DNA from: Bacteroidales bacterium | Lineage (GTDB): Bacteria; Bacteroidota; Bacteroidia; Bacteroidales; UBA932 | Reading direction: 5' to 3' | Assembly (NCBI GenBank): GCA_017625725.1 | Contig: JAGAKH010000013.1 | Location: 38,464-102,463, forward strand | Length of the DNA stretch: 64,000 nt | Part shown: positions 29,691-56,463 of the stretch, piece by piece | Numbering within the stretch: the stretch's first letter is position 1 | Layout: every line of letters starts with the position of its first letter | Program-made: the position numbers and the translations under genes | Notes under the pieces: model-generated | Database searches by the model: none | The model's input: only the letters and a program-made list of their open reading frames with translations | What the model was told of the DNA's origin: nothing

Positions 29691-29706
29691 ATATAGTCCG
29701 TTTATA

Positions 29707-31884: not shown

Positions 31885-31915
31885 CAAAAATAGTAAAAAA
31901 GCCCGTTTTCTCCAA
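31885..31915 (-). promoter_or_regulatory. Promoter of the lytS-lytTR-OPT-ZIP-pepT operon
   Basis: On the minus strand TTG (31915-31913) is followed after 20 bases by TATTTTTG (31892-31885), matching the Bacteroidales promoter. Transcription would start near 31878, ten bases before the kinase ATG. Confidence 0.55.
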
Positions 31916-31945
31916 TTTTACGTAAAATTTCATCTTTGAATTATG

Positions 31946-31975
31946 ACCGTTCGTCAAAAACTTCCGACAGTTCGT
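31946..31975 (+). promoter_or_regulatory. LytTR-type operator: two direct 9-bp repeats
   Basis: ACCGTTCGT (31946-31954) and ACAGTTCGT (31967-31975) lie in the same orientation, 12 bases apart. Each agrees at every position with the published LytTR-family half-site pattern [TA][AC][CA]GTTN[AG][TG]. The spacing also matches that class. The pair lies just upstream of the candidate starch-operon promoter and about 50-70 bases upstream of the divergent kinase promoter. Confidence 0.65.
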
Positions 31976-31987
31976 CATGAATATTCG

Positions 31988-32015
31988 TTTGTCTTATATA
32001 TTATAGTTATTTTCG
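31988..32015 (+). promoter_or_regulatory. Candidate promoter of the starch-utilisation operon
   Basis: TTTG (31988-31991) and TATTTTCG (32008-32015) are 16 bases apart. The -7 box has one mismatch to TAnnTTTG and the spacing is short. A weak core promoter next to the LytTR repeats would suit activator dependence. Transcription would start near 32022. Confidence 0.35.
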
Positions 32016-32060: not shown

Positions 32061-33362
32061 ATGCAAAAAAACAAACTAACGTTTTGGCAGATGTGGAACA
32101 TCAGCTTCGGATTCTTCGGAGTCCAGATCGCTTATTCCCTTCAGAATGCCAACATCAGCCGTATTTTTGCGACTTTAGGTGCGGATCCTCACGATCTGAG
32201 TTTCTTCTGGATACTTCCGCCCCTCATGGGACTTCTTGTCCAGCCGCTTGTAGGTAAATACAGTGACAGGACATGGTGCCGTTTGGGCAGGCGTATCCCT
32301 TATCTCTTCCTCGGCTCGATCATCGCCATCCTTGTGATGTGCATGCTGCCTAACGCAGGAAACTTCGGCCTTGCTGTAGGAGGAGCTATGATCTTCGGAC
32401 TCATTTCGCTGATGCTTCTTGACACTTCCATCAATGTGGCCATGCAGCCGTTCAAGATGCTGGTAGGAGACATGGTGGGAGAAGAGCAGAAGGGACAGGC
32501 TTACTCCATCCAGAGTTTCCTCTGCAATGCCGGAAGCCTTGTAGGTTATCTTTTCCCATTCATCTTCGCATGGATCGGAATTGCTAACACTGCTCCCGAA
32601 GGACAGGTCCCTGACACTGTAAAGTATGCATTCTACATCGGTGCAGCAATTCTTATTCTCTGCGTACTCTTCACAACCTTCAAGGTTAAGGAGATGCCTC
32701 CGAAGGAGTATGCCGAATTCCATGGAATCGATCCTGACAAGAAAGAGGAGAAGGCTCCAAGCATGTTTGTGCTTCTCAAGAATGCCCCTAAGACATTCTG
32801 GACAGTCGGCATAGTTCAGTTCTTCTGCTGGGCTGCCTTCCTCTACATGTGGACTTACACCAACGGTGCCATTGCCGACACTGTATGGGGAACCACTGAT
32901 GTGGCTTCCGACGGATATCAGGCAGCAGGCAACTGGGTGGGAGTGCTTTTCGCAGTGCAGGCCATAGGCTCGATGCTCTGGGCTCTTGTAATCCCTAAGT
33001 TCAGGAACATCAGGACTGCGTATGTGGTGAGTCTCCTTATCGGAGCAGCAGGCTTCGCCTCTGTATTCTTCATCCATGACCAGTACGCCCTGATCATTTC
33101 ATTCCTGCTTATCGGAGCAGCATGGGCGGCGATGCTTGCAGTGCCTTTCACTCTCCTGACCAATTCGCTTTCAGGTGACCATATCGGCACTTACCTCGGC
33201 CTCTTCAACGGAACGATCTGTCTTCCTCAGATCGCAGCTGCGGCTTGTGGCGGCTTGGTCCTCAAGCTTGTCGGAGGAGCCCAGGTGAGCATGTTCCTCG
33301 TGGCTGGAGTCCTGCTGGTTCTCGGAGCGGTTTCCGTAAGATTTGTAAAGGATAACAAATAA
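32061..33362 (+). CDS. MFS sugar transporter, probable maltose/maltodextrin importer
   Basis: This is a 433-residue inner-membrane carrier with about twelve hydrophobic segments. The opening FWQMWNISFGFFGVQIAYSLQNANISRIF and the loop KYSDRTWCRLGRRIPYLFLG are typical of the SLC45/GPH-like MFS sugar transporters found beside starch loci in Bacteroidota. It would carry maltose or short maltodextrins from the periplasm to the cytoplasm. It is the first gene of the starch operon and lies 34 bases before susC. The classical Bacteroides thetaiotaomicron sus cluster has no such gene. Confidence 0.85.
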   Translation: MQKNKLTFWQMWNISFGFFGVQIAYSLQNANISRIFATLGADPHDLSFFWILPPLMGLLVQPLVGKYSDRTWCRLGRRIPYLFLGSIIAILVMCMLPNAGNFGLAVGGAMIFGLISLMLLDTSINVAMQPFKMLVGDMVGEEQKGQAYSIQSFLCNAGSLVGYLFPFIFAWIGIANTAPEGQVPDTVKYAFYIGAAILILCVLFTTFKVKEMPPKEYAEFHGIDPDKKEEKAPSMFVLLKNAPKTFWTVGIVQFFCWAAFLYMWTYTNGAIADTVWGTTDVASDGYQAAGNWVGVLFAVQAIGSMLWALVIPKFRNIRTAYVVSLLIGAAGFASVFFIHDQYALIISFLLIGAAWAAMLAVPFTLLTNSLSGDHIGTYLGLFNGTICLPQIAAAACGGLVLKLVGGAQVSMFLVAGVLLVLGAVSVRFVKDNK

Positions 33363-33396: not shown

Positions 33397-36300
33397 ATGA
33401 ATAGAATAATGACGCTATGCACATCTATTCTGCTTTCATGCGTGATGGGTGTGTCCGTATTCGCCCAGGGCGGATATGAAGTGAAAGGAGTAGTTGTTGA
33501 TGCAGTAGGTCCTGTAATCGGTGCTACAGTCATCGAACAGGGTACCACCAACGGTACATCTACCTCACTGGACGGCGACTATGTCCTTACTGTCTCAAAT
33601 GCCAATGCAATCGTGGAAATCAGCTGCATCGGTTATGCGAGCCAGACATTTGCGGCATCACAGGTGCCTCCGACTGTAACTCTTACTGAAGACACACAGT
33701 TCCTCGACGAAGTTGTGGTCATCGGTTACGGTACAGTGAAGAAAGAAGATATGACAGGTTCGATCACAGCCATCAAGGCTGACGAGATCAACCGTGGAGC
33801 AGTTGTAAACACTCAGGACCTTCTCAAAGGTAAGGTGGCAGGTCTTCTCGTGACCCCTGGAGACGGTGGCCCTGGTTCAGGTTCAAGAATCCGTGTCCGT
33901 GGTGCTGCTTCCCTCAATGCATCAAATGACCCTCTCATCGTCATCGACGGTGTTCCTATCGCTCAGGGTGCAGGAGCAGGCATGTCTAACCCTCTCGACC
34001 TCATCAATGCAAACGATATCGAGTCATTCTCAGTAATGAAGGATGCTTCATCAGCTGCGATCTACGGATCACGTGCTTCCAATGGTGTCATCATCATCAC
34101 TACCAAGAAGGGTAAGGGCAACAAGCCATCAGTTTCATATTCAGGTAGCGTGAGCGTCCAGCAGAACTCTGCAAGAGTACCGACCATGACAGGTGAGGAA
34201 CTCCGTGCTTTCTACTCTGAGGCTTATCCTGCAGGAACAATAACCGGTGACAAGATCGCAGCTCTCTACGGTGACGGCAACTATGATTACCAGAGCATGA
34301 TCTTCAGACCTGGCGTGTCCCATGACAGAAATATCAGCATTCATGGAAATGTCAACGAGCGCATGCCATACCGTGCATCCATCGGATGGATCGGACAGAC
34401 AGGTACACTCGTAGGTTCCAACTACGACAGAGGAACCCTCGACCTTAACCTTTCTCCTAACTTCCTTGACAAGCACCTTACATTTGACCTCAGTGCAAAG
34501 GGTGTCTATACCTTATCTGATTATGCAGACAGCGGTGTCATCGGAAATGCGGCTTTCTTCAATCCTACCCAGGATCCGTATTGGAGAAACGAGGACGGAA
34601 CAATCGACTTCACTACTACCAACGGTTTCTGGAACTATGGTAACGGCCGTGGTGATGGATTCAGCCCTAATACTCTCGTAGGTGAGGCACCTCTTTCACA
34701 GCTCTATGACAAGTTCGACAACCAGAAGGCAACCCGTTTCATCGGCCGTGCAGCCGTTGATTATAAGGTTCATGGTTTTGAAGCCCTCCGTTTCAACCTC
34801 AGCGTCAGCCTCGACTACACCGCTTCAAACAGAAAATCAGGAAGTCATCCGGGATCCATCTATGCATGGAAGGATACTGAAAACAAGGGTATCGGCCAGT
34901 ATTCAAAGAGCTATAATATGGCCCGCAGCCAGGTTCTCGAGGCTTATGCCAACTACAATGAGACCTGGGGAATCCACAACCTCGACGTGATGGCAGGTTA
35001 TTCTTGGCAGAACAACTACTGGGCTGACAGAAGCGTGTCTTATTTCAACGAGACAGATGAAGTGAAGCTTAATGAGGGTGAAACCGAATATTCAAGATAT
35101 CTGTGGTGGATGAACGAGAACTACATGGTTTCATTCTATGGCCGTGTTAACTACTCGATCGATTCCCGTTACATCTTCACAGCTTCCGTACGTTATGACG
35201 GTTCATCAAAGTTCTCCAAGGCAACGCGTTGGGGCTTCTTCCCTTCTGGAGCATTTGCATGGAACATCAAGCAGGAAGGCTTCCTCAAGGATTCAAAGAC
35301 AGTGTCTGCCCTCAAACTTCGTCTCTCTGCCGGTATGACAGGACAGCAGGATGGTATTGACAACTACATCCACCTTGCAGAGTACTCGACTTCTACAGAT
35401 GTATATAAGATGTATCCTATGGGTAATGTCCCTGGCGGAGACGGTACAGGTTTCGTTCATTGGATGACTCCGGGTGCATACGACCCTAACATCAAGTGGG
35501 AGACTACTACGACTTACAATGCCGCCCTCGATTTCGGTTTCTTCAATGACAGACTCAGCGGTACAATCGATGTATACCGTCGTGATACCAAGGACCTCCT
35601 CAACAATGTGGTTACTCCGATGGGATCGAACTTCGGTAACAGCGTCATGACAAACGTCGGATCGCTCCGTAACCAGGGTGTCGAGTTCACAATCAATGCA
35701 ATTCCGGTTCAGACTAAGGATTGGAGCGTACAGGTGGGATTCAACGGTACCTTCCAGGATACCAAGTTCACCAAGCTGAATGCTAACAGCGATCCTACAT
35801 ACTTTGTTGAGTGCAACGGTAAGCCATTCAAGGGTACAGGTGGAGCTCTTTCACGCCAGATGGTAGGATATGAGCCATTCACTTACTATTGCTACCAGCA
35901 GCTTTACGATGCTGAAGGCAATCCTATCCAGAATGCTTTCGTTGACCGTGACGAAGACGGTGTCATCAGTGAAGGTGACCTCTATATGACAGGAAAGAGC
36001 ATCAATCCTGACTTCTTCTACGGAATCAACTTCAAGGTGTCCTACAAGAACTGGGACTTTGGTTTCAACGGCCACGGTTCAGTAGGAGGATGGGCATTCA
36101 ATGACTTCAACTCATCAAATTCTACATCTAATGTGGATGTGAATGCAGGAAATCTTCCTAACCTTTCATACATCGTAAACAAGACCAAGTTCACAAAGGC
36201 TAACTCTAAGGAGCAGTGGTATTCGGATTACTTCCTTGAAAGCACATCATTCTTCCGTCTTGATGATGTCAACCTCGGTTATACATTCAAGAATGTGGGT

Positions 36301-36465
36301 ATCCAGGAAAAAATGAACATCCGTCTGGCTCTCTGTGCACAGAATCTGTTCGTAATATCGAACTACAGCGGAATGGACCCGGAGGTTTCTGCTGAGAACG
36401 GTATCGACGGTACTATCTGGCCACGTCCACGCACATATGCAGTCCGTCTTAACATCAACTTCTAA
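33397..36465 (+). CDS. susC: SusC-like TonB-dependent outer-membrane transporter
   Basis: This is a 1022-residue outer-membrane receptor that imports maltooligosaccharides with energy from TonB. The signal peptide ends at VSVFAQ. A carboxypeptidase-regulatory-like domain follows (YEVKGVVVDAVGPVIGATVIEQGTTNGTSTSLDGDY), then the SusC TonB-box region FLDEVVVIGYGTVKKEDMTGSI, a plug domain (VRGAASLNASNDPLIVIDGVPI, ASSAAIYGSRASNGVIIITTKKG) and a 22-strand barrel ending in YAVRLNINF. Codons are strongly biased to C-ending forms (ATC, CTC, TTC), consistent with high expression. It pairs with the SusD gene eight bases downstream. Confidence 0.95.
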   Translation: MNRIMTLCTSILLSCVMGVSVFAQGGYEVKGVVVDAVGPVIGATVIEQGTTNGTSTSLDGDYVLTVSNANAIVEISCIGYASQTFAASQVPPTVTLTEDTQFLDEVVVIGYGTVKKEDMTGSITAIKADEINRGAVVNTQDLLKGKVAGLLVTPGDGGPGSGSRIRVRGAASLNASNDPLIVIDGVPIAQGAGAGMSNPLDLINANDIESFSVMKDASSAAIYGSRASNGVIIITTKKGKGNKPSVSYSGSVSVQQNSARVPTMTGEELRAFYSEAYPAGTITGDKIAALYGDGNYDYQSMIFRPGVSHDRNISIHGNVNERMPYRASIGWIGQTGTLVGSNYDRGTLDLNLSPNFLDKHLTFDLSAKGVYTLSDYADSGVIGNAAFFNPTQDPYWRNEDGTIDFTTTNGFWNYGNGRGDGFSPNTLVGEAPLSQLYDKFDNQKATRFIGRAAVDYKVHGFEALRFNLSVSLDYTASNRKSGSHPGSIYAWKDTENKGIGQYSKSYNMARSQVLEAYANYNETWGIHNLDVMAGYSWQNNYWADRSVSYFNETDEVKLNEGETEYSRYLWWMNENYMVSFYGRVNYSIDSRYIFTASVRYDGSSKFSKATRWGFFPSGAFAWNIKQEGFLKDSKTVSALKLRLSAGMTGQQDGIDNYIHLAEYSTSTDVYKMYPMGNVPGGDGTGFVHWMTPGAYDPNIKWETTTTYNAALDFGFFNDRLSGTIDVYRRDTKDLLNNVVTPMGSNFGNSVMTNVGSLRNQGVEFTINAIPVQTKDWSVQVGFNGTFQDTKFTKLNANSDPTYFVECNGKPFKGTGGALSRQMVGYEPFTYYCYQQLYDAEGNPIQNAFVDRDEDGVISEGDLYMTGKSINPDFFYGINFKVSYKNWDFGFNGHGSVGGWAFNDFNSSNSTSNVDVNAGNLPNLSYIVNKTKFTKANSKEQWYSDYFLESTSFFRLDDVNLGYTFKNVGIQEKMNIRLALCAQNLFVISNYSGMDPEVSAENGIDGTIWPRPRTYAVRLNINF

Positions 36466-36473
36466 TAAGGTGA

Positions 36474-38198
36474 ATGAAAATGAAACTTATAAATAAATAT
36501 CTGTCAGTATTTGCCGCAGGCCTTATGGCAGCGTCATGTATAGGTGATTTGGATACGCTTCCGCTCAACCCTTCTCAGACTGTGTCAGAGAGTGCTTACG
36601 GAACTGACGAATCAGCCTATATCGGAGGTCTTGCGAGAATATATTTTCAGTTCGTGTCCAACGACCTGACCGACCTCCAGCCTATGGACGGAGGTGCTTC
36701 TGAAATCATCCGTGCATTCTGGTCAACTCAGGAAACAACATGCGATGCAGTAAAATGTGCATGGGAGAATGACGACTGGGTACGTGCCCTCAATACAAAC
36801 TCATGGGATGAGTCACAGAATCCTGCAGCCTATGCGGTGTATGTACGTGCAATGCAGGGTATTTCCTTTGCCAACGAGTATCTTCGTCAGACATCTGCCG
36901 ATGTTCTCGAGGCTCGTGGAGTAAGTGCAGACCTTGCTGCAAGAATCGAGAGCTATCGTGCTGAGGCACGTTTCCTTCGTGCCTACCTCTACTGGATGGC
37001 AATGGATACATTCGGAAACGTTCCTTTCACAACAGAGAACTCTCCTTTCGGTGGAACATACAATCCTAAGCAGACTTCAAGGACAGAAGTGTTCAACTTC
37101 CTTGTAAACGAGCTTAATGACCTTATTTCCGACAACAGTGCCATGCCGGCTCCAAGATCGAACTATCCAAGAGCTGACAAGGGTTCTGCTGCAGGTCTTC
37201 TTGCACGTCTTTACCTCAATGCAGAGGTCTATACATCCGTAAGGGACGCACAGGGTAATGTCACTACTCCAGGTACTCCTATGTGGAATGAGGCTAAGGC
37301 AACCTGTGAAAAGATCTTCGACATGGGTTATGAACTCTGCCCTGAGTATGCCCACCTCTTCAGAGGCGATAACGGTGAGAATCCTGAAGCCCGCAACGAA
37401 ATGCTCTGGACTGTAGCTTATGATGCGGAGAGCACTCAGTCATACGGCGGAACAACATATATGCTTTGTGCATGTGTTGCTGCAACAGATGTGACCGATA
37501 AATCCAAGCCTAACGGTCAGGTTAACGGCTGGGCCGGTCTTCGTGCACCATTCGAGTATGTCAACAAATACTTCGCTCCAACCGGTATCTCGGCAAAGGA
37601 TGACAATGGAGTATATGTGGAGAATACATACACGATCAAGGACAAGAGAGGACAGATGTTCTACATCAAGGGCCGCAAGGAGTCTATGCAGGATGAACTC
37701 TATGTATTCCTCAGCGGTTGGTCATGCCTGAAGTACAACAATTACCCAAGCACTGTCAAGGATGTGTACAACCCTGGTGCTGAAGCTCTTGCAACAGCTG
37801 GTGTGAAGGCATACAGTGATATCGACTATCCTATGATACGTCTGGGTGAGATCTACCTCATCTATGCTGAGGCTTGTATGCATGCCGGTGGAGATGCTTC
37901 AAAGCAGATCAAGGCTCTTGCTGACCGTGCCGGTGTTGCCGCTCCTTCAAAGATCGACCAGGATTTCCTTGTTGCCGAAAGAGCACGTGAGCTTATGTGG
38001 GAAGGTCACAGAAGAACCGACCTTATCCGTTACAACCTCTTTGCAGGTGAGGATGTAAACTTCAACTGGACTTACAAGAGCGGTTCATTCACAGGCCAGC
38101 CGTTCCCAGGATACAAGTATATATTCTCAATCCCTTATTCAGAGCTTACAGCTAATGAGGAACTGGTTCAGAATCCAGGCTATCTCGATGCTGAATAA
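36474..38198 (+). CDS. susD: SusD/RagB starch-binding outer-membrane lipoprotein
   Basis: This is a 574-residue lipoprotein with lipobox AASC (Cys22); ATG 36474 or ATG 36480 may be the start. The residues after Cys (I-G-D-L-D) are acidic, a feature of surface-exported lipoproteins in Bacteroidota. SusD hallmarks are LPLNPSQTVSESAYGTDESAYIGGLARIY, the helical ARFLRAYLYWMAMDTFGNVPF segment, RGDNGENPEARNEMLWTVAYD, YPMIRLGEIYLIYAEACMHAGG and ARELMWEGHRRTDLIRYNLFAG. SusD lids the SusC barrel and helps capture glycans. It is followed 27 bases later by the fused SusE/F gene. Confidence 0.95.
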   Translation: MKMKLINKYLSVFAAGLMAASCIGDLDTLPLNPSQTVSESAYGTDESAYIGGLARIYFQFVSNDLTDLQPMDGGASEIIRAFWSTQETTCDAVKCAWENDDWVRALNTNSWDESQNPAAYAVYVRAMQGISFANEYLRQTSADVLEARGVSADLAARIESYRAEARFLRAYLYWMAMDTFGNVPFTTENSPFGGTYNPKQTSRTEVFNFLVNELNDLISDNSAMPAPRSNYPRADKGSAAGLLARLYLNAEVYTSVRDAQGNVTTPGTPMWNEAKATCEKIFDMGYELCPEYAHLFRGDNGENPEARNEMLWTVAYDAESTQSYGGTTYMLCACVAATDVTDKSKPNGQVNGWAGLRAPFEYVNKYFAPTGISAKDDNGVYVENTYTIKDKRGQMFYIKGRKESMQDELYVFLSGWSCLKYNNYPSTVKDVYNPGAEALATAGVKAYSDIDYPMIRLGEIYLIYAEACMHAGGDASKQIKALADRAGVAAPSKIDQDFLVAERARELMWEGHRRTDLIRYNLFAGEDVNFNWTYKSGSFTGQPFPGYKYIFSIPYSELTANEELVQNPGYLDAE

Positions 38199-38225: not shown

Positions 38226-40424
38226 ATGAAACTAGCAAAATATATTGCAATATTGGCGGCTGCATTCAGTGTGAGTGTAGCTTGCGTGGAGGAGCTTGAG
38301 AAGGTGAAGATAGCCGATCCTTCTGAGGTCATCTCTCCTGTACTTGCCTCTATGGGGGATTCTCTCATTTTCAATGCTGAGAATCTTGCTTCAAAATACA
38401 CATTCACCTGGGATGCCGCTGATTTCGGTGTCAAGGCTCAGGTCAATTATGCCATCGAGGCTTCTACCGAGACAGCGGGTCCAGTGGAAGTATTCACAGG
38501 AGCGACCGGAACCAAGGCTGATGTAGCTTATGAGATCATCAATGAAAGACTCTTCAACGGTCTTGCTCTCACTCCAGCAGAACCTGTAGCTGTGAACTTC
38601 ATGGTTTCTGCAAAAATCGGTGAAGGACAGAAATATTATTCAGATCCTGTAAAGGTTATCGTTTCAGTGACTGCAGCTGAGAAGAAGTATCCTATGGTTT
38701 ATGTGATCGGTTCATTCAATGACTGGGCAGACGGCACAACTCAGGAACTCTTCGACTTCGACGGCAAGGATGCTGAGTACAGCGGTATCGTAGGATTCAA
38801 CGGAAAGGCAGCTAACGGATTCAAGGTAAGAGGTTCAGAAACCGGTTGGATCAACGAACTCGGCAACTGGGGTCTTGACGGATCCATCGATCCACCTGCA
38901 GCAGAGTCGACTGAGATTCCTTTGATCAGCGACGGAGGATCTTCAGACATCAAGATTCTTTCCAACGAGTTCTACAACTTCACTCTCGTGAAGGGTACTC
39001 CTGCTCTTAAGGTGAACTTCACATTCAACACTGTAGGTGTAATCGGTACTGCTGTCGGCGGTTGGGATTCAGACATCGACCTTACATTCGATTCAGTTAC
39101 TCAGAAGTTCTATGCAGACGTCACATTGGTTGACGGTGAGATGAAGTTCCGTGCAAATGATGCATGGGATCTCAACTGGGGTGTATCTGCAGAAGGTGTG
39201 GTCATGACTGAGGGATCGCTCAACGGTGGCAGCAACATCACAGTTCCAGCTGGTAACTACCGTATCTACCTCAACCTCAACAACCCTGTAGATGCAACAT
39301 TCGAACTCAACGCCGAGGACTATGGCAAGGAGCAGGAAGTTGTGATTCCGGACAAGCCGGTAATGACAGGCTGGGGTATCGTAGGATCGATCACCAACTG
39401 GGGTAACCTCACTGAGGACAACAAGTACATTGCTGACATCGCTTTGACTACAGACGGTACATGGTACTATGCTAAGGGTGTTGAGATTCCTGCTGATGCG
39501 GAGATCAAGTTCCGTCTTGACGGAGACTGGGCTAAGCAGTGGGGTCTTGGAGCTGATGCATTCGTGGCAAACAAGGAGTTCTTCCTTTCAAATGACGGAG
39601 GTTCAGGAAACATCAAGCCTGCAGCCGGTAAATATGACGTTTACCTCAACCCTGAGACAGGTGCCGTATGGTTCAACAATGACGGCAACTATCCTGGCGG
39701 AGCACCGGCTCCTGTGGCTGCAGAGTGGGGACTCATCGGTTCTATGGCTGCTTCTGGAAACTGGTCTAACAACATCACTCTCTTCGTAGAGGGAGACTAT
39801 TTCGTGGCTCGCGGAGTCGTATTCGCTGACAACGACCAGTTCAAGTTCAGAAAGGGTAACTCATGGGGAGTAGAGCGTACATACGAGGGTGTGATCACTG
39901 TCGATGCTAAGCTCGACCTCATTGACGGTACAGGCGGAAAGCAGAACTCTTCAATCTCTAAGGGCGGAACATACGACGTGTTCTTTGCACAGGATGAGTC
40001 TGCATTCTATGTGATGACTCCTGGCAAGACTCCAGCTGATGCTGGTGCAGCACAGAAGGTCTACACAGACCCTTCAGCTGAGACATTCAACGTAGGATTC
40101 TCAGGCAGCGTGATCGGATGGGACGACCCTTCATACGACCAGAAGGACAGGGCTAGCTTCGTAAGCAAGAACGTTACTGATGCCAAGACTTTTGCAGGTA
40201 CTTATGAGTTCAAGCTTGAAGGTATCACATTCGCGAACGGCGATGAGTTCAAGATCCGTATCAACGGACAGTGGATCGGAGTTGGCGGTGCTGTTGTAGA
40301 GGGTCTTGCAGTTTCAGGTGGTGACAACTTCGCAGCAGGTGAGGACGGCACTTACAATGTGACCATCACATTTGCATGGGACGGAAGCACTCATTCAGAC
40401 GTAAAGGCTGTATTTACAAAATAA
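38226..40424 (+). CDS. Fused SusE/SusF-like surface starch-binding lipoprotein
   Basis: This is a 732-residue lipoprotein with Cys20 (SVACVEELEK); the acidic residues after Cys suggest surface export. An N-terminal SusE-type Ig-like domain (about 25-150, LENLASKYTFTW-like sequence) is followed by five beta-sandwich modules starting near residues 155 (MVYVIGSFNDW), 270 (VGVIGTAVGGWDSD), 382 (GWGIVGSITNW), 500 (EWGLIGSMAASGNW) and 621 (VGFSGSVIGWDD). Modules 3 and 4 have the DVYLN/DVFFA ending typical of SusE/F starch-binding domains. B. thetaiotaomicron SusE and SusF are separate proteins of about 390 and 485 residues, so this looks like one protein doing both jobs. A closely similar module is nested in the amylase encoded next. 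Confidence 0.82.
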   Translation: MKLAKYIAILAAAFSVSVACVEELEKVKIADPSEVISPVLASMGDSLIFNAENLASKYTFTWDAADFGVKAQVNYAIEASTETAGPVEVFTGATGTKADVAYEIINERLFNGLALTPAEPVAVNFMVSAKIGEGQKYYSDPVKVIVSVTAAEKKYPMVYVIGSFNDWADGTTQELFDFDGKDAEYSGIVGFNGKAANGFKVRGSETGWINELGNWGLDGSIDPPAAESTEIPLISDGGSSDIKILSNEFYNFTLVKGTPALKVNFTFNTVGVIGTAVGGWDSDIDLTFDSVTQKFYADVTLVDGEMKFRANDAWDLNWGVSAEGVVMTEGSLNGGSNITVPAGNYRIYLNLNNPVDATFELNAEDYGKEQEVVIPDKPVMTGWGIVGSITNWGNLTEDNKYIADIALTTDGTWYYAKGVEIPADAEIKFRLDGDWAKQWGLGADAFVANKEFFLSNDGGSGNIKPAAGKYDVYLNPETGAVWFNNDGNYPGGAPAPVAAEWGLIGSMAASGNWSNNITLFVEGDYFVARGVVFADNDQFKFRKGNSWGVERTYEGVITVDAKLDLIDGTGGKQNSSISKGGTYDVFFAQDESAFYVMTPGKTPADAGAAQKVYTDPSAETFNVGFSGSVIGWDDPSYDQKDRASFVSKNVTDAKTFAGTYEFKLEGITFANGDEFKIRINGQWIGVGGAVVEGLAVSGGDNFAAGEDGTYNVTITFAWDGSTHSDVKAVFTK

Positions 40425-40469: not shown

Positions 40470-40495
40470 TCTGCTGACCTTGGCTGGTCAGCAGA
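40470..40495 (+). promoter_or_regulatory. Perfect 10-bp hairpin upstream of the first amylase gene
   Basis: TCTGCTGACC (40470-40479) and GGTCAGCAGA (40486-40495) form a perfect stem around loop TTGGCT. No T-run follows. With the hairpin at 40434 it makes a two-hairpin spacer between susE/F and the GH13 gene, possibly an mRNA processing or stability site. Confidence 0.55.
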
Positions 40496-40518
40496 TTGCC
40501 GAGTTAAAAATGATAGAT

Positions 40519-43002
40519 ATGAAAAAGGCATTTATTTTTATTGCAGCGGTATTTGCGGCACTCGTTTCGTGCCAGACCGTAGACCCTATCGAAGAGACGA
40601 AGGGAACGATAACCGTGACTCCAGAGGATGTTGTGTTCGGTATGGATGAGGGTGAAGTGTTGCTTACACTCACACTGAATTCATCTGTGAAGGAGTGGAC
40701 TTTGACCCAGACAGGAGGAGAGGACTGGTGCATGCCGTCAAAGACATCCGGCAAGACTTCCACTACGATCAAGGTTGAAGCGAAACGCAATGTCGGAGAA
40801 AAGAGGACCTCAACACTTCAGTTCGATTCTCCCGGATGCGAACCTGCGATCGTGAATGTGGTTCAGAACGGAATTGAAAAGGCTGCCAAGCCGGAGGGTT
40901 TCACTGCAGGATTCAGATATAACGACGATAACTCCGTGTCTTTCATTTTCCTTGACAAGGATGCGGATGGAAAGTCGTACGACTATGCCTATCTCATCGG
41001 AGAGTTCAATGACTGGACTCCAAGTGATGAATATCTCATGCATAGGGACGAAGAGGCCGGCTGCTGGTGGTATACCCTCACTAATCTTGATCCGAATAAG
41101 GAATATATGTTCCAGTATTATCTCGGAAACTTTGATGAGGAAAGAGGACGTGCTTTTGCCGATCCGTTCTCTCCTATCGTGTATGAGGCCTATGACAGGC
41201 ATATCGCCTATTCGACTTATCCGGATCTCAGGGAGTATCCGACTAAGACCAAGGGAGCCGTATCCGCTTTCCAGATAAATATGGAAGAGTACCAGTGGGA
41301 GGTGGATGACTATAAGATAGAAGATGAAAACGACCTCCTTATCTATGAGCTTCTTCTCCGCGATTTCTCCGCTACAGGTGACCTTAACGGAGCGATGGAA
41401 AAGCTCGACTACCTCGAAGGTCTCGGAATCAACGCAATCGAGCTCATGCCTATCCACGAGTTCAACGGCTCCGACAGCTGGGGATACAACCCTATAAGCT
41501 ACTTCGGACTCGAGAAGTCATACGGAACACGTGATATGTACAAGAAGTTTATCGACGAGTGCCACAAGCGTGGAATCGCTGTAATCGTCGACGTTGTGTA
41601 CAACCATGTTCATGAGGATCATCCTTATGCAGGTCTTTATTTTGACTGGAGCACCTACATGCCTACAGCTAACAATCCTTGGTTCAATGTTGTTGCACCG
41701 CATCCTTTCAGTGTCTTCCACGACTGGAACCATGAGAACGAATGGGTAAGGGACTATATCAAGTCAAGTCTGGAATACCTCATCAAGACCTATAAGGTTG
41801 ACGGTTTCCGTTTCGACCTTACAAAGGGCTTCACCAACAAGCAGAGCAACGAAAGCTCGGCATCCAACTATGATGCAAGCCGTGTTGCCATTCTCAAGGA
41901 TTATGCGGGCTTCATCAAGCAGGTTGATCCGAATGCAGTGGTGATCTTCGAGCATTTCGCTGATGCAGAGAACAATGAACTTGGAAAGGCTGGAGCCAAG
42001 ATCTGGAGGAACCTCAACTGGGCGTACCGTCAGTCAGTATCCGGATCAAATGCCAACTTCAGCGATCTTTGGACCGGTACAGCTGTTCCTTTCGGTACCT
42101 ATGTCGGATATATGGAAAGCCACGACGAGGAAAGGACATGCTTCGGTGCCACTACAGATAAGACAGAGTCGGTTTCGTGGGGTATCTGCGGTACTCTCAA
42201 CAACTGGGGAGGAACGCCGGATATAGCCTTTGCTGCCGACGGAGCCCTGCTTGTAGCAAAGAACGTTACATTCACATCTTCCGATATGTTCAAGATCCGC
42301 GGAAACAACTCCTGGAATGTCGATGCATATAATCTCGGAGGAACAGTAAAGGGTCAGAAACTCCCTCTCAACAAGGATTTCACTCTTTCAAGCGGTGGCG
42401 GTTCTGCTGATATGGCAGCACCTGCAGCCGGAACCTATGATGTGTATTTCTCTCCGGCAGCGATGAAGGTATGGATCATGACTCCTGGTTCAAGACCTGC
42501 CGATCCTGATGTGGAGCAGGCTGATGCCCTTACAGTGGCAATGAACCGTGCGGCATGTAATGCAGCCTTCTTCTTTACTGTTCCGGGTCCTAAGATGATC
42601 TGGCAGTTCGGTGAGCTTGGATACGATATCTCTATTGAGGAAGGAGGCAGAACATCAAAGAAACCTCTGCATTGGGAGTATTTCGACGTGCCGGCAAGAA
42701 AGAAACTCTATGATACCTATGCCGGTCTGATGAACTTCCGTGCTGAGAATCCAAGATTCTTTGACAGCGATGCCACTTTCAAGTGGGCTCCTTCAACAAC
42801 CACAAAGACCATCTTTGCAGAGGCGGACGGAAAGAGGTTTGCCGTAGTCGGCAACTTCGCAAAGGGAAGCCAGACAGTGTCTGTGACCCTCCCGGCAGGC
42901 GGAACATGGACCAACTGGTTCGATAAGTCCGAGAAATACAACGGGGCATCCCAGTCATTCAAGCTCAATGAGGGAGAGTTCAAGCTTCTGGTCAACTTTT
43001 AA
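40519..43002 (+). CDS. GH13 amylase-type lipoprotein with a starch-binding module nested in the catalytic domain
   Basis: This is an 827-residue lipoprotein with lipobox LVSC (Cys14) from ATG 40519; ATG 40510 is also possible and a TTG at 40480 was rejected. Domains in order: a BACON-like Ig domain (about 28-115, GTITVTPEDVVFGMDEGE), a CBM48-like E-set domain (125-250, AYLIGEFNDWTPSDEYLMHR), then a GH13 barrel from about 272. Catalytic residues are Asp433 (GFRFDLTKGF), Glu478 (VIFEHFAD) and Asp536 (MESHDEERT). Residues about 545-668 are an inserted SusE/F-like module (SWGICGTLNNWGG to GTYDVYFSPAAMKVWIMTPG). The barrel then resumes with NAAFFFTVPGPKMIWQFGELGYD. The 1142-residue paralogue at 52929 lacks this insert. 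It hydrolyses alpha-glucans, probably at the surface or in the periplasm. Confidence 0.88.
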   Translation: MKKAFIFIAAVFAALVSCQTVDPIEETKGTITVTPEDVVFGMDEGEVLLTLTLNSSVKEWTLTQTGGEDWCMPSKTSGKTSTTIKVEAKRNVGEKRTSTLQFDSPGCEPAIVNVVQNGIEKAAKPEGFTAGFRYNDDNSVSFIFLDKDADGKSYDYAYLIGEFNDWTPSDEYLMHRDEEAGCWWYTLTNLDPNKEYMFQYYLGNFDEERGRAFADPFSPIVYEAYDRHIAYSTYPDLREYPTKTKGAVSAFQINMEEYQWEVDDYKIEDENDLLIYELLLRDFSATGDLNGAMEKLDYLEGLGINAIELMPIHEFNGSDSWGYNPISYFGLEKSYGTRDMYKKFIDECHKRGIAVIVDVVYNHVHEDHPYAGLYFDWSTYMPTANNPWFNVVAPHPFSVFHDWNHENEWVRDYIKSSLEYLIKTYKVDGFRFDLTKGFTNKQSNESSASNYDASRVAILKDYAGFIKQVDPNAVVIFEHFADAENNELGKAGAKIWRNLNWAYRQSVSGSNANFSDLWTGTAVPFGTYVGYMESHDEERTCFGATTDKTESVSWGICGTLNNWGGTPDIAFAADGALLVAKNVTFTSSDMFKIRGNNSWNVDAYNLGGTVKGQKLPLNKDFTLSSGGGSADMAAPAAGTYDVYFSPAAMKVWIMTPGSRPADPDVEQADALTVAMNRAACNAAFFFTVPGPKMIWQFGELGYDISIEEGGRTSKKPLHWEYFDVPARKKLYDTYAGLMNFRAENPRFFDSDATFKWAPSTTTKTIFAEADGKRFAVVGNFAKGSQTVSVTLPAGGTWTNWFDKSEKYNGASQSFKLNEGEFKLLVNF

Positions 43003-43021
43003 TGTCTGAAAACCTCGGGAA

Positions 43022-44986
43022 ATGAAATCTGCTTTAAAACTTATACTGATGATGGCTATGGTGGCTTCCGCTCTTTCTTCATGCAAGGACTGTCCTGAAA
43101 ATGCTGTTCCTGCCGCCGTCTATGAGGAATGTGTCTATGATGGAAGTGCTGCCAGTTTCTCGCTGTGGGCACCTGAGGCTGAAGATGTCCGGCTCCGTCT
43201 GTACTCTTCTGCCCAGGATAAGGAAGCAGCCGAACTGATCGGCATGGAAAAGTCAGAAGACGGACTCTGGAAGGCGACAGTCGACAAGGATATAAAGGGC
43301 TCGTTCTATACCTTCCAGGTAAAGAGAGACGGAAAGTGGCTTGAGGAAACTGCCGGTTTCGCAGTCAAGGCTGTAGGAGTGAACGGAATGAGGGGAGCTG
43401 TCGTAGACTGGGACGAAACGGACCCATGCGGTTGGGAGGATGACAAGAGTCCGGTTGTGAAGCCTTCAGACATCATCGTGTATGAACTTCACCACAGGGA
43501 TTTCTCGATTCATAATACATCAGGAATCTCGGAAAAGGGAAAATATCTGGCTCTTACTGAAGAAGGGACAAGAAATCCGGACGGACTCGCCACCGGTATC
43601 GATCATCTCAAGGAACTGGGCATAACCTATGTCCAGCTCCTGCCGTCAACAGACTTCGCAACTATCGATGAAACCCGTCTTGAAGACAATCAGTACAACT
43701 GGGGATATGAGCCGCTTAACTATAACGCAGTAGAAGGTTCGTATTCTACCGATCCTTATGATCCGGTGACCCGCATCAATGAGTTCAAGAAGATGGTCCA
43801 GGCCCTCCACAAGGCCGGAATCAGAGTGATTCTTGATGTCGTCTACAATCATACGACAAACGCCTCGGTAACAGGTTTTGAACGTACCAACCCGGGCTAT
43901 TTCTACAGGATGCAGGCAGACGGAAGTTTCTGCAACGCTTCCGGATGTGGAAATGAGACAGCTTCCGAGCGTGAGATGTTCAGAAAGTTCATGGTAGAGT
44001 CTCTTGAGTGGTGGATGAAGGAATACCATATTGACGGATTCCGTTTCGACCTTATGGCGATTCACGACATCGAGACCATGAATCTGATAAGTGAAAGACT
44101 CCACGCAATCGATCCGGACGTGGTTATATATGGAGAAGGCTGGGCAGCATCCTCTGTTGCCATGCCTGAGGAGCAGATTGCATTGAAGGTGAATACTCAC
44201 ATGCTTGATAAGGTAGGAGCCTTCAGTGACAATATCCGTGATGCCATTCGCGGACCGCTTGACTGTTCGAATGCAGGATTCATGGACGGCGTCGAAGGCA
44301 AGAAGGCTGATCTGGAATTCGGTATCGCAGGTGGTGTGAGCCACCCTCAGGTCTCGGTTCCTTTCTGGACCAACAATCCTCTGCAGCATGTCAGCTATGC
44401 CAGCTGCCACGATGACCACTGTCTCCGTGACCGTCTTGAAGAGGCAACCAAGGCTTCTGAACAGGACCGTCTAAGGATGGTCAAACTTGCCCAGACTGCT
44501 GTCTACACTTCTCAGGGAATCCCATTCATATTCAATGGAGAGGAACTCTACCGTCACAAGCAAGGCGTGAAGAACAGCTACAACCAGCCGGATGCCATCA
44601 ATGCCATCGACTGGACCTACAAGACCCGCTACAAGGACCTTGTCGACTATTATTCTGCTCTTGCCGCAATCCGTCATGCTCATCCTGGCTTCTGTCTTGG
44701 AGATGCTGATCTGGTCAGAGAGAAACTCCGTTTCATAGATGTGGAGGATCCGTGTGTCGTAGCCTTCCGTATTGAAGGACTTGAGGGAATCGATGAGGCA
44801 AAGTCCCTGACCGTACTTCTCAACGGTTCAAAGAAAAATGTCAAGGTGGAGATACCGCAGGGAGACTATACGGTTCTCGCCCAGAACGGAACTGCAGATG
44901 CGGACGGACTCGGAGCATTTTCCGGAAAGCTGATTTCGGCAAATCCTACCTCAGCCACCATCCTCGCTGAATACCGCGGTCAATAA
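43022..44986 (+). CDS. pulA: Type I pullulanase (GH13)
   Basis: This is a 654-residue lipoprotein with lipobox LSSC (Cys21). An N-terminal CBM48-type domain (ASFSLWAPEAEDVRLRLYSS) precedes the catalytic barrel. The pullulanase signature YNWGYEPLNYNAVEGSYSTDP is present. Catalytic residues are Asp343 (GFRFDLMAIHD), Glu372 (VIYGEGWAAS) and Asp464 (ASCHDDHC). It cleaves alpha-1,6 branches in pullulan and branched maltodextrins, complementing the alpha-1,4-acting enzymes encoded around it. Length is near that of other type I pullulanases. The gene lies 19 bases after the nested amylase. Confidence 0.92.
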   Translation: MKSALKLILMMAMVASALSSCKDCPENAVPAAVYEECVYDGSAASFSLWAPEAEDVRLRLYSSAQDKEAAELIGMEKSEDGLWKATVDKDIKGSFYTFQVKRDGKWLEETAGFAVKAVGVNGMRGAVVDWDETDPCGWEDDKSPVVKPSDIIVYELHHRDFSIHNTSGISEKGKYLALTEEGTRNPDGLATGIDHLKELGITYVQLLPSTDFATIDETRLEDNQYNWGYEPLNYNAVEGSYSTDPYDPVTRINEFKKMVQALHKAGIRVILDVVYNHTTNASVTGFERTNPGYFYRMQADGSFCNASGCGNETASEREMFRKFMVESLEWWMKEYHIDGFRFDLMAIHDIETMNLISERLHAIDPDVVIYGEGWAASSVAMPEEQIALKVNTHMLDKVGAFSDNIRDAIRGPLDCSNAGFMDGVEGKKADLEFGIAGGVSHPQVSVPFWTNNPLQHVSYASCHDDHCLRDRLEEATKASEQDRLRMVKLAQTAVYTSQGIPFIFNGEELYRHKQGVKNSYNQPDAINAIDWTYKTRYKDLVDYYSALAAIRHAHPGFCLGDADLVREKLRFIDVEDPCVVAFRIEGLEGIDEAKSLTVLLNGSKKNVKVEIPQGDYTVLAQNGTADADGLGAFSGKLISANPTSATILAEYRGQ

Positions 44987-45022
44987 TCCCATGAAACTGC
45001 TCTTGGTCAAACTTATAATAAC

Positions 45023-46240
45023 ATGAAAAAAATATTATTTACCCTCTGTGCCGTTCTTATGGCGTTCTCATGCTGCCAGACACCTCAGCAGCAGCCTTTG
45101 GAAAATTGCGTAGTGTATGAGATGAATGTCCGTCAGTACACACCTGAAGGAACTTTTGCAGCTGCACAGCAGCAGCTCCCTCGTCTGAAGGAACTCGGAA
45201 TCGACATTCTCTGGCTGATGCCGATCCATCCTATCGGAGTCAAGGAACGCAAGGGAACCCTCGGATCTTACTATGCAATAGCCGACTATAAGGCGATAAA
45301 TCCGGAGTTCGGAACAATGGAGGATTTCGAACGTTTCCTCGCAGAGGCTCACAAGCTTGGCTTCCGTGTCATTCTTGACTGTGTGGCAAACCATACATCA
45401 CCCGATGCAAGATGGATCAACGAGTGTCCGGCAGACTGGTATGTAAGAGATTCCCTCGGCAACACAGTTGTAAACTACGACTGGTATGACATCGCCGAAC
45501 TGAATTATGACAAGAAGGAGGTATGGGATGCAATGGCTGACCAGATGAATTTCTGGATGGATAAAGGCATTGACGGCTTCCGTTGCGATATGGCATGCGA
45601 AGTTCCGCTTGAATTCTGGCAGGAGACCATTTCTGCTCTTCGTGAGAAATATCCTGATATGTTCATGCTTGCTGAAGGCGAGGAACCCAAGCTTCATTCC
45701 CTTTCAGGATTCAATTCGTCATACGCATGGGAACTCCACCATATGCTGAATGACATTGCACGTGGAGAAAAGAATATTCCTGAACTTCTGGCATACATCG
45801 AAAAAGATGCTCAGAGACATCCTGAGGATGCATTCCGTCTCATGTTTACCTCCAATCACGATGAAAACTCATGGGCCGGAACCGAGTTCGAAAGAATGGG
45901 TGATGCCGCGAAGGTAATGGCTGTGCTTACATTCACTCTTCCGGGAGGACAGCCACTCATCTACACAGGTCAGGAAATGGGATGGAACAAGAGATTCGAG
46001 TTCTTTGAGAAAGATCCGATACCGGCTTGGGAAAACAACGAGTATACAGAGTTCTACAAATGGCTTATTGATGTCCGTCATAGCAATCCTGCACTTGCAG
46101 CAGGTGTGAACGGCGGTCGTTTCGAAGTAGTCTCTACTGACGACAGCACCCTCGTCTTCACAAGAACTCTCCCTGATAATAAGGTTACAGTGAAGGCAGA
46201 GCTTAAGGCACCTTGGTCATACGAAATCGTAGCGGAATAA
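45023..46240 (+). CDS. Small GH13 alpha-amylase/glucosidase lipoprotein
   Basis: This is a 405-residue lipoprotein; signal peptide and Cys17-Cys18 (FSCCQTPQQQ). It contains little beyond a compact GH13 barrel: VVYEMNVRQYTPEGTF at the start, then RVILDCVANHTSPDARW. Catalytic residues are Asp189 (GFRCDMACEV), Glu218 (MLAEGEEPK) and Asp280 (FTSNHDENSW). GQEMGWNKRFEFFEKDPI follows the barrel's eighth strand. No acidic stretch follows the lipidated Cys, so a periplasmic location is likely. It would act on short imported maltodextrins. Its stop shares a base with the susA start. Confidence 0.88.
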   Translation: MKKILFTLCAVLMAFSCCQTPQQQPLENCVVYEMNVRQYTPEGTFAAAQQQLPRLKELGIDILWLMPIHPIGVKERKGTLGSYYAIADYKAINPEFGTMEDFERFLAEAHKLGFRVILDCVANHTSPDARWINECPADWYVRDSLGNTVVNYDWYDIAELNYDKKEVWDAMADQMNFWMDKGIDGFRCDMACEVPLEFWQETISALREKYPDMFMLAEGEEPKLHSLSGFNSSYAWELHHMLNDIARGEKNIPELLAYIEKDAQRHPEDAFRLMFTSNHDENSWAGTEFERMGDAAKVMAVLTFTLPGGQPLIYTGQEMGWNKRFEFFEKDPIPAWENNEYTEFYKWLIDVRHSNPALAAGVNGGRFEVVSTDDSTLVFTRTLPDNKVTVKAELKAPWSYEIVAE

Positions 46241-48171
46241 TGAAAAGGATTATCATAACTCTCGCAATCATATCCCTCGCTGCATGTACGGCAAGGCCTT
46301 CTTTTGACCCTTCATCGGTAGCCGATGCCACTGCCGGTCAGGTTACACGCGTGGAACCGCTTTCATGGTGGGTAGGAATGAAGACCGATCTCCAGCTTCT
46401 TGTCCAGGGTACCGGCATTTCCGAGTATAATGTCGAAATAGAAGGAGGCAAAGGTGTATCTGTGGAAAAGGTAGCAAAGGCTGAAAGTCCGAACTATCTT
46501 TTTGTGGATGTGGAAATCGCTGCTGATGCTCAGCCTGGCACTTACTATATCGTCTTCTCAAAGGACGGAAAGTCATTCAAGTATCCTTATGAGATAGCGG
46601 CTCGTGTTGAAGGCTCAGCCCAGCGCAAGAGCTTTACCACAGCGGATATGGTCTACCTCATCATGCCGGACCGCTTTGCAAATGGCGATCCTTCAAATGA
46701 TTCTACAGATGACACAGCTGAGGATGCTGACCGTGCGGACGGCAACGGACGCCACGGAGGAGACATTCAGGGTGTTATCGATCATCTTGATTATATAAGT
46801 GAACTTGGAGCCACATACATCTGGACTACGCCTTTCCTTGAGGATAACGCTCCACGTGGCTCATATCATGGCTATGCAGCCTCGGATTATTACCATATCG
46901 ACTCCCGCTTCGGCTCCAACGAGCTTTACAGGACTCTCGTCGACAAGGCCCGTGAGAAGGGAATAGGCATAATCATGGACATTGTACCAAACCATTGCGG
47001 AACGGAACACTGGTGGATGGAAGACCTTCCTTTCCAGGACTGGATCCATCAGTTCCCTACATACACCGGAACAAATGTGGCATTCTCAACCAACATGGAC
47101 CCAAATGCTTCGGCTAGAGACCTTTTCATCCAGGAAAGCGGATGGTTTGTACCGTCGATGGTGGACATGAATCTTGACAATCCTTATGTTCTCCAGTATT
47201 TCATCCAGTGGGGTGTGTGGTGGATAGAATATTCCGGACTTAACGGATTCCGTGTAGACACATATCCATACAATGAGAAGGAACCGGCAGCAGAATGGTG
47301 CAAGGCCATCCTTGATGAGTATCCGGATTTCAATATAGTGGGTGAGTGCTGGACATCGTCCATCCCTCAGCTTGCGTACTGGCAGGGTGGAAATGCCAAC
47401 AAGGACGGATTTGATTCCCATCTTCCTTCTATCATGGATTTTCCTCTTCATGATGCCATGCGTGCGGCTCTCTCCGAGGATCACGGCGGCTGGGGTGCTG
47501 GTATGTCCAAGGTCTATGACGTCCTGTCACACGACTTCGTCTATCACGACCTGTCAAAGATGCTCATCTTCCCCGGTAACCACGATACGGCACGTATAGG
47601 TGATGTGGTACGCAAGGATCCACGTGCCCTCAAGCTTGCCATGACGATGATGGCAACTATGCGAGGCATTCCTCAGATCTTTGCCGGTGACGAACTTATG
47701 TTCGTCTCCGCCAAACCGGACAACATCGGTGACCATCCGGGTCTCCGCGTGGATTTTCCAGGTGGCTGGGAAGGCGATCAGCTCGATTTCTTTACAGAGG
47801 AAGGACGTGCGGCCCAGACTCATAATACAGACGGCCTCGAGGTCCCTAAGGGTCAGGCTGCCGATCTGTTTGACTATGTCAGCCGTCTCTTCCAGTGGAG
47901 AAAGACAGCCGATGTCATCCATAACGGAAAGACCCTGCATTTCATGACACGTGACAACACCTATGCATATTTCCGCTACAACGATGAAAAAGCGGTGTTT
48001 GTATACATCAACAATAATCTTGAAGATAAGAACATTCCATGGTCTTACTATTCTGAGATCACCGAAGGACTCCATGATGGTGTCGATGTCTTGACAGGAG
48101 AGCCGTTTGAGGTGTCGGATGCAACTGTAGTGGCTCCAAAGACAGCCTTAGTGGTTGAATACAGACGATGA
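46240..48171 (+). CDS. susA: SusA-like neopullulanase/cyclomaltodextrinase (GH13)
   Basis: This is a 643-residue lipoprotein with lipobox LAAC (Cys16), from ATG 46240 overlapping the previous stop by one base; a GTG at 46213 was rejected. An N-terminal cyclomaltodextrinase-type domain (RVEPLSWWVGMKTDLQLLVQG) precedes the GH13 barrel. Hallmarks are MVYLIMPDRFANGDPSND, HGGDIQGVIDHLDYI and SYHGYAASDYYHID. Catalytic residues are Asp340 (GFRVDTYPY), Glu369 (IVGECWTSS) and Asp449 (GNHDTARIGD). It corresponds to B. thetaiotaomicron SusA in order of domains and in position next to SusB. It cuts maltodextrins in the periplasm. Confidence 0.92.
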   Translation: MKRIIITLAIISLAACTARPSFDPSSVADATAGQVTRVEPLSWWVGMKTDLQLLVQGTGISEYNVEIEGGKGVSVEKVAKAESPNYLFVDVEIAADAQPGTYYIVFSKDGKSFKYPYEIAARVEGSAQRKSFTTADMVYLIMPDRFANGDPSNDSTDDTAEDADRADGNGRHGGDIQGVIDHLDYISELGATYIWTTPFLEDNAPRGSYHGYAASDYYHIDSRFGSNELYRTLVDKAREKGIGIIMDIVPNHCGTEHWWMEDLPFQDWIHQFPTYTGTNVAFSTNMDPNASARDLFIQESGWFVPSMVDMNLDNPYVLQYFIQWGVWWIEYSGLNGFRVDTYPYNEKEPAAEWCKAILDEYPDFNIVGECWTSSIPQLAYWQGGNANKDGFDSHLPSIMDFPLHDAMRAALSEDHGGWGAGMSKVYDVLSHDFVYHDLSKMLIFPGNHDTARIGDVVRKDPRALKLAMTMMATMRGIPQIFAGDELMFVSAKPDNIGDHPGLRVDFPGGWEGDQLDFFTEEGRAAQTHNTDGLEVPKGQAADLFDYVSRLFQWRKTADVIHNGKTLHFMTRDNTYAYFRYNDEKAVFVYINNNLEDKNIPWSYYSEITEGLHDGVDVLTGEPFEVSDATVVAPKTALVVEYRR

Positions 48172-48177
48172 TAATAA

Positions 48178-50391
<2,214 letters not shown>

Positions 50392-50562: not shown

Positions 50563-50586
50563 TGTGGTTTTTAATGATTTGTGAAG

Positions 50587-52866: not shown

Positions 52867-52874
52867 TCATATCC

Positions 52875-52904
52875 GAAAGCCCGAGGGTGAAACTTCGGGC
52901 TTTT
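52875..52904 (+). terminator. Weak intrinsic terminator before the large amylase gene
   Basis: AAAGCCCGA (52876-52884) pairs with TTCGGGCTTT (52894-52903), followed by only four T residues. It is probably partial, since the next gene starts 25 bases later with no clear promoter. Confidence 0.6.
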
Positions 52905-52928
52905 GCCAGTAATTAAAATATATAAATC

Positions 52929-56357: not shown

Positions 56358-56381
56358 TAATAATGGATATTGGCAATGCAG

Positions 56382-56424
56382 TAGGCATAAGTGAGGGTAA
56401 TCTCGCTTGTGCCTATTGTTTTTC
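56382..56424 (+). terminator. Strong intrinsic terminator of the starch operon
   Basis: TAGGCATAAGTGAG (56382-56395) and CTCGCTTGTGCCTA (56402-56415) form an uninterrupted 14-bp stem with two G-U pairs and loop GGTAAT, followed by TTGTTTTT. This ends the operon that begins at 32061. Confidence 0.85.
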
Positions 56425-56445
56425 TGTCGGGAATCGTTATCTTTA
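56416..56445 (+). promoter_or_regulatory. Promoter of the fimbrillin-like lipoprotein gene 56464
   Basis: TTG (56416-56418) and TATCTTTA (56438-56445) are 19 bases apart and match the Bacteroidales promoter with one mismatch in the -7 box. The -33 element sits in the terminator's T-run. Transcription would start near 56452. Confidence 0.5.
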
Positions 56446-56463
56446 CAAGATAAACTTACCGTT

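Follow-up and report, generated by a model that had tools for sequence, protein, structure and literature searches.

Textbook accounts of starch control in gut Bacteroidales are built on SusR of Bacteroides. For B. thetaiotaomicron, SusR sites have been predicted that consist of repeats with a separation of 67 or 77 bp; the DNA-binding domain of SusR is described as having no significant similarity to others (PMC3878776). In Muribaculaceae genomes a SusR-containing cluster is reported to be located in many cases directly upstream of susC (PMC8636109). LytTR regulators are known from other settings. BtsS/BtsR of E. coli consists of a LytS-type kinase with 7 TM segments and a LytTR regulator, with the pyruvate transporter BtsT as target (PMC10653868). 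The LytTR Regulatory Systems, and with them the LRS-like operons of Bacteroides, have direct repeats, mostly with 11-13 bp spacers, shortly upstream of the promoter, and control their own operons or bacteriocin genes with a membrane partner; in the Bacteroides members, TM segments precede the LytTR domain (PMC6193735). In Roseburia intestinalis, the arabinoxylan locus gpPUL Ros-7 is given with a histidine kinase and a response regulator of the LytTR type, HK and RR[LytTR] (PMC5320581).

The starch locus described here lies in a Bacteroidales DNA stretch of 64,000 nucleotides, analysed as a whole (the window), and resembles each of these systems in part. It shares with SusR of B. thetaiotaomicron a candidate membrane-linked activator of starch operons, but has LytTR-type repeats at 21 bp and a kinase/regulator pair. 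Like the HTCS of Bacteroides PULs it appears to place a polysaccharide locus under two-component control; HTCS are, however, single fused AraC-type proteins (PMC3878776), whereas kinase and regulator are separate here, the latter with a LytTR domain, and no single-protein kinase/receiver/AraC-type architecture was found. A multi-TM kinase, a LytTR regulator and a nutrient uptake gene as target are shared with BtsS/BtsR, but that system deals with pyruvate and one transporter, and the window with a whole starch locus behind a three-repeat operator. Compared to the LytTR Regulatory Systems, the commonest form here is a two-component system and the predicted target is starch. Ros-7 likewise combines a LytTR regulator and a kinase in a polysaccharide locus, but belongs to the Firmicutes, with ABC/GPH transport and arabinoxylan as substrate (PMC5320581). 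Among the matches listed from the open-licence literature, the portions available describe no LytTR control of a starch locus. LytTR paired repeats and control of a nutrient transporter by a LytS-type kinase were already known, and the parts are of known kinds; their combination, and the reduction series described below, look new.

Table 1 Features of the starch locus and its control region in the window
Feature	Position	Strand	Remark
Response regulator, 254 aa	29707..30471	-	Receiver PF00072 + LytTR PF04397
Histidine kinase, 463 aa	30477..31868	-	PF06580 preceded by several hydrophobic (TM) segments; conserved NPHFLFN and N-box
Predicted kinase/regulator promoter, TTGG-N19-TATTTTTG	31885..31915	-	-33 and -7
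Half-site 1, AAATTTCATC	31925..31934	+	In 21-bp register with the other two; farthest from consensus
Half-site 2, ACCGTTCGTC	31946..31955	+	
Half-site 3, ACAGTTCGTC	31967..31976	+	Promoter-proximal; TTC (31971) starts 37 bp before -7 box
-7 box TATTTTCG (TAnnTTyG) of predicted starch operon promoter	32008..32015	+	Conserved -33 absent
MFS sugar transporter	32061..33362	+	First starch-operon gene
susC-like (33397-36465) and susD-like (36474-38198)	33397..38198	+	
SusE/SusF-like outer-membrane protein	38226..40424	+	Pfam
GH13 amylase, pullulanase-type GH13, GH13, neopullulanase-type GH13 (SusA-like), GH97 (SusB-like)	40480..50391	+	
761-aa ORF, 1142-aa GH13 protein, 755-aa ORF	50581..58674	+	Same strand; operon membership presumed

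The kinase of the window matches His_kinase PF06580 with 82.7 bits, and H293 and N387 are invariant in 18 aligned sequences. Its TM part gave no Pfam match at E up to 0.1, and thus none to 5TMR-LYT, which we take to be the sensor domain of LytS in the strict sense; the protein is therefore LytS-type by its kinase domain only. The regulator scored 63 bits with PF04397 (cut-off 22.6) and 55 bits with PF00072 (cut-off 30.2), bearing out that LytTR regulator genes adjoin the site, as stated in an earlier sequence-only reading of this DNA. Residues D58 and K103, presumably the phospho-acceptor aspartate and the conserved lysine of the receiver, are invariant in 16 aligned sequences. On the other side, the susC/susD pair together with the α-glucan enzymes identifies a starch utilization PUL. 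The susD product matched solved structures of SusD (3ck7, 2.3e-54) and, best, of a SusD superfamily protein (3jys, 3.6e-69), and the GH97 product matched SusB (2d73) with 1017 bits; solved structures gave no match for the SusE/SusF-like protein. Pfam gave none for the 761-aa (50581-52866) and 755-aa (56407-58674) ORFs that flank the 1142-aa GH13 gene. Among the 20 ORFs at 24056-63174, two of them match-less, Pfam recognised no further regulator, in a genome that is about 80% complete; judging from this gene content the starch locus is likely to be independent of SusR. An OPT-family transporter and a ZIP-family metal transporter are encoded next to the regulator gene, downstream on the same strand, and the gene ends overlap (26881-29717). 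They had no tblastn match in the relatives' loci L008-L067 and L116 and therefore probably stand outside the starch system.

The array of repeats is located between the MFS-susC-susD-amylase operon and the divergent kinase/regulator pair. The two repeats given in the sequence-only reading, ACCGTTCGT (31946-31954) and ACAGTTCGT (31967-31975) with 12 bp between them, are present in the window exactly as described. The site is not limited to these two: a third half-site upstream had been missed, and TTC starts at 31929, 31950 and 31971, in steps of exactly 21 bp. Among the named close relatives, Bacteroidales MAGs of ruminant gut origin are frequent. In 28 of the 29 named loci with a regulator identity of at least 65% (L037-L064, L116) an MFS match is divergent from the kinase, the exception being L059, where the contig begins inside the kinase gene. 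The 64 MFS upstream regions adjoining a kinase gene comprise 56 distinct ones. In these, TTCRTC pairs occur at a spacing of 21 bp (72 pairs) and 42 bp (36 pairs), the next best spacing having 4; no TTCRTC pairs were found on the other strand. Three exact TTCRTC motifs at steps of 21-22 bp are present in 34 of the 56 distinct regions, including that of the window, and 31 have them at exactly 21 + 21.

The regulator link had been based on a perfect fit to the LytTR consensus, which proved weak ground. The pattern used here, WMMGTTNRK-N12-WMMGTTNRK, is assumed to represent the generic LytTR paired consensus. It has a single match in the window, with 0.02 expected; genome-wide enrichment was absent, with 2 matches versus 8 for a backwards control pattern, and the generic consensus was rejected as evidence. 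The triple TTCRTC-N15-TTCRTC-N15-TTCRTC at up to 1 mismatch matches the genome once, at this site; its backwards control, however, has 2 matches at up to 1 mismatch and, in a separate scan, 1 exact match, so the genome of the window alone proves nothing. With the generic consensus too loose and the single-genome control not clean, the weight rests on conservation in relatives. A genus-wide scan yielded 36 exact triples in 27 of 101 genomes versus 3 matches for the control pattern. Of these 36, 22 are at the kinase/MFS locus (assigned by reading of the places, one G072 site being counted on two contigs), 1 is at a pullulanase gene and 13 are elsewhere, at least 2 of them inside genes. The array does not mark LytTR genes in general: the genome has three more of them, and their fetched flanks contain no TTCRTC pairs at 21 or 22 bp. 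Five such pairs occur in the distant set L068-L115; four of these share a homologous position where the matched regulator gene starts.

Presence of the array follows presence of the regulator. An MFS match was found in 76 of the 101 sampled genomes of the genus. Three were left out, G002 and G015 as fragments without the MFS start and G072 because it is split between contigs, and the window with the 73 further MFS loci gave 59 loci with an adjoining LytTR regulator and 15 without one. In the latter, kinase and regulator are both absent from stretches of up to 3.5 kb. A repeat pair with at most 1 mismatch within 200 bp upstream of the MFS gene is present in 51 of the 59 loci with regulator versus 0 of the 15 without (Fisher 2.7e-10), and a triple with at most 3 mismatches in 48/59 versus 0/15. 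Mononucleotide shuffles gave the pair in about 0.4% and the triple in about 0.2%. The best pairs of the eight regulator loci lacking a pair at this threshold (L205, L242, L245, L248, L249, L260, L263 and L266) have 2 mismatches, and so does the best pair of L253, which has no regulator. The MFS tree, weakly resolved from 102 columns, has five supported and independent pairs that differ in regulator presence, a number with which a sign test cannot reach 0.05; the array follows the regulator in 4.3 of them on average, and never the opposite. In at least 8 of the 15 loci without regulator the MFS gene stands closely behind another same-strand ORF, and therefore the promoter itself may be missing or different there. 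In L206, L226, L228 and L252, where the LytTR genes are missing, the ORF before MFS is large and by eye resembles a 4-alpha-glucanotransferase; this order perhaps represents another way of wiring the transporter.

The promoters on both sides of the array differ. The Bacteroides -7 consensus is TAnnTTTG, with TTTG near -33 (PMC7366714). For the starch operon a weak promoter had been proposed with a -33 element TTTG (31988-31991). This motif indeed follows the repeats by 12 bases, but it is only 16 bp from the -7 box and its position is not conserved, and it was rejected as a -33 box. A logo of 23 diverse promoters showed just a weak TT at 21-22 bp before -7. Phasing was analysed in 123 regulator-side regions, of which 68 were left after removal of 40 duplicates and 15 without exact paired repeats. 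Counted from the start of the last repeat, a TAnnTT(T/C)(G/A) box begins at 37-39 bp in 43/68 of these distinct regions and at 58-59 bp, the next register, in 6/68. The remaining 19 have a -7-like box at neither distance; by eye, eight of them show TATTTTAG there. On the kinase side TTG-N18-22-TAnnTTyG is present in 36/68 regions versus 0/68 on the opposite strand, on the starch side in 6/68 versus 7/68, and the distance from the first repeat to the kinase-side -33 box is constant in many species. Because a -33 is rare at the starch promoter and common at the regulator promoter, and the last repeat is phased to -7, the starch promoter is read as activator-dependent, with a separate promoter predicted for the sensor genes.

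Arrays before the pullulanase genes of L179 (genes named by Pfam) and L047 prompted an analysis of 14 pullulanase loci, i.e. 13 of 14 matches (the fragment L286 was left out) and L047. In L047 an array had first been expected before susC; the stretch read contains none there, and one precedes pullulanase instead. A second array, defined as a triple with at most 2 mismatches whose last repeat begins 37-38 bp ahead of a -7-like box, was found in 9 of the 14 loci (L274-L280, L282 and L047). It is absent from the window (L273), from L281 and from the more distant L283-L285. In the window the SusE/F and a GH13 gene stand between susD and pullulanase, with 19 bases between the last two genes, and given this tight row one promoter probably serves all. 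By eye, the interval from the second array to the -7 box contains an AT-rich palindrome (e.g. CTTATATAT-nnn-ATATATAAG) in most pullulanase promoters of L274-L280 and L282. In L275 both arms of the palindrome differ and can nevertheless pair, which makes it a possible binding site of a second dimeric protein.

The arrangement extends beyond the genus. In Alistipes (L065-L067) kinase, regulator, MFS and susC have the same layout as in the window; the repeats of L066 read TTCGTC/CTCGTC/CTCGTC, and L065 and L067 show a degenerate pair by eye. In L268, which belongs to a different family of the order, the genes share one direction: kinase and regulator come first, then the array pair, then pullulanase, MFS and susC. 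The spacing to -7 is about 40 bp there and the box is imperfect. The fetched stretches around more distant regulator relatives (L269-L272) gave no match to the starch genes of the window. An exact three-repeat 21-bp TTCRTC array was also observed in L185 (1868-8117) and L186 (3446-8648), between a Reg_prop histidine kinase with a LytTR regulator and divergent genes whose products begin with lipoprotein-like residues, one product having Ig-like domains. This suggests a second LytTR system that has a similar operator and acts on different targets.

Seven loci carry a shorter protein in the place of kinase and regulator. In six (L219, L222, L250, L233, L237 and L234) it consists of a TM domain and LytTR, and in L241 of LytTR alone (116 aa). 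Pfam analysis of L219, L233, L234 and L241 found LytTR and neither kinase nor receiver. The TM part, present in all but L241, aligns at 33-38% identity with the N-terminal portion of the kinase in the window, over residues 5-198 at most, and a repeat pair with at most 1 mismatch is kept in all seven loci. In a tree of the LytTR domain (63 rows, 116 columns) a single kinase-less clade was rejected (p-AU 0.0006), and the starred branches force at least three changes, of which this tree cannot separate gain from loss. Grouping of five TM-LytTR forms in one clade was rejected only marginally (p-AU 0.041), and a placement of L241 with L219, L222 and L250 is possible (p-AU 0.35). Loss is suggested as the direction by the two-component forms of Alistipes and L268. 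Retention of the TM part without kinase or receiver points to a sensing role of the TM domain. It is conceivable, with chances put a little short of even, that the membrane domain itself reads the signal and that at least three lines dropped kinase and receiver, keeping TM-LytTR or bare LytTR, the array and the starch target.

LytTR control of the starch locus, as proposed in the sequence-only reading, is well supported at the level of sequence comparison by conservation of the array, by its absence where the regulator is missing (51/59 versus 0/15), by the phasing to -7 and by the second arrays (9/14). The best explanation, which is judged highly probable, is that the array is the operator of the LytTR regulator and would activate the starch operon upon a starch-linked signal. 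The LytS-type multi-TM kinase would sense a signal linked to starch or maltodextrin and phosphorylate the regulator. Molecules of the latter would occupy the three TTCRTC repeats along one side of the helix, and the last repeat, some 38 bp ahead of the -7 box, would replace the missing -33 and help RNA polymerase onto the MFS-susCDEF-amylase operon. Since the kinase and regulator genes have a complete predicted promoter of their own, the sensor could be made before starch arrives. Closeness of the array to both promoters would also suit a regulator that represses the starch operon when bound and is released by phosphorylation. This is improbable, as the starch side has no -33 and the 37-39 bp from last repeat to -7 in 43 of the 68 regions suits an activator; moreover, activation is what has been described for LytTR repeats immediately upstream of -35 (PMC6193735).

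The constant distance between the first repeat and the kinase-side -33 in many species could alternatively mean that the array mainly serves autoregulation of the kinase and regulator genes, with the starch genes as bystanders. It is the least probable of the alternatives considered: the second arrays precede amylase genes away from the kinase gene in nine loci, and the array pair of L268 is downstream of the regulator gene, before pullulanase. Binding of another, unlinked transcription factor, the LytTR linkage being due to hitch-hiking, would agree with the fact that the genome has three further LytTR genes whose fetched flanks contain no such pair. It is nevertheless very improbable, because none of the 15 MFS loci without a LytTR gene has kept the array, while it persists in L241 next to just a 116-aa LytTR protein, and 9-bp direct repeats about 12 bp apart are the usual type of LytTR site (PMC6193735).

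For its starch genes, a large and mostly uncultured gut group seems to rely on a LytTR system whose operator is defined. This provides an annotation rule for starch regulons in metagenomes, namely TTCRTC at 21-bp intervals, placed about 38 bp ahead of TAnnTTyG. The kinase-less forms represent a testable case of two-component systems collapsing into one-component regulators and, if the reading of the membrane domain as sensor is true, the group would show, at a single promoter, natural stages of the passage from two-component to one-component control.
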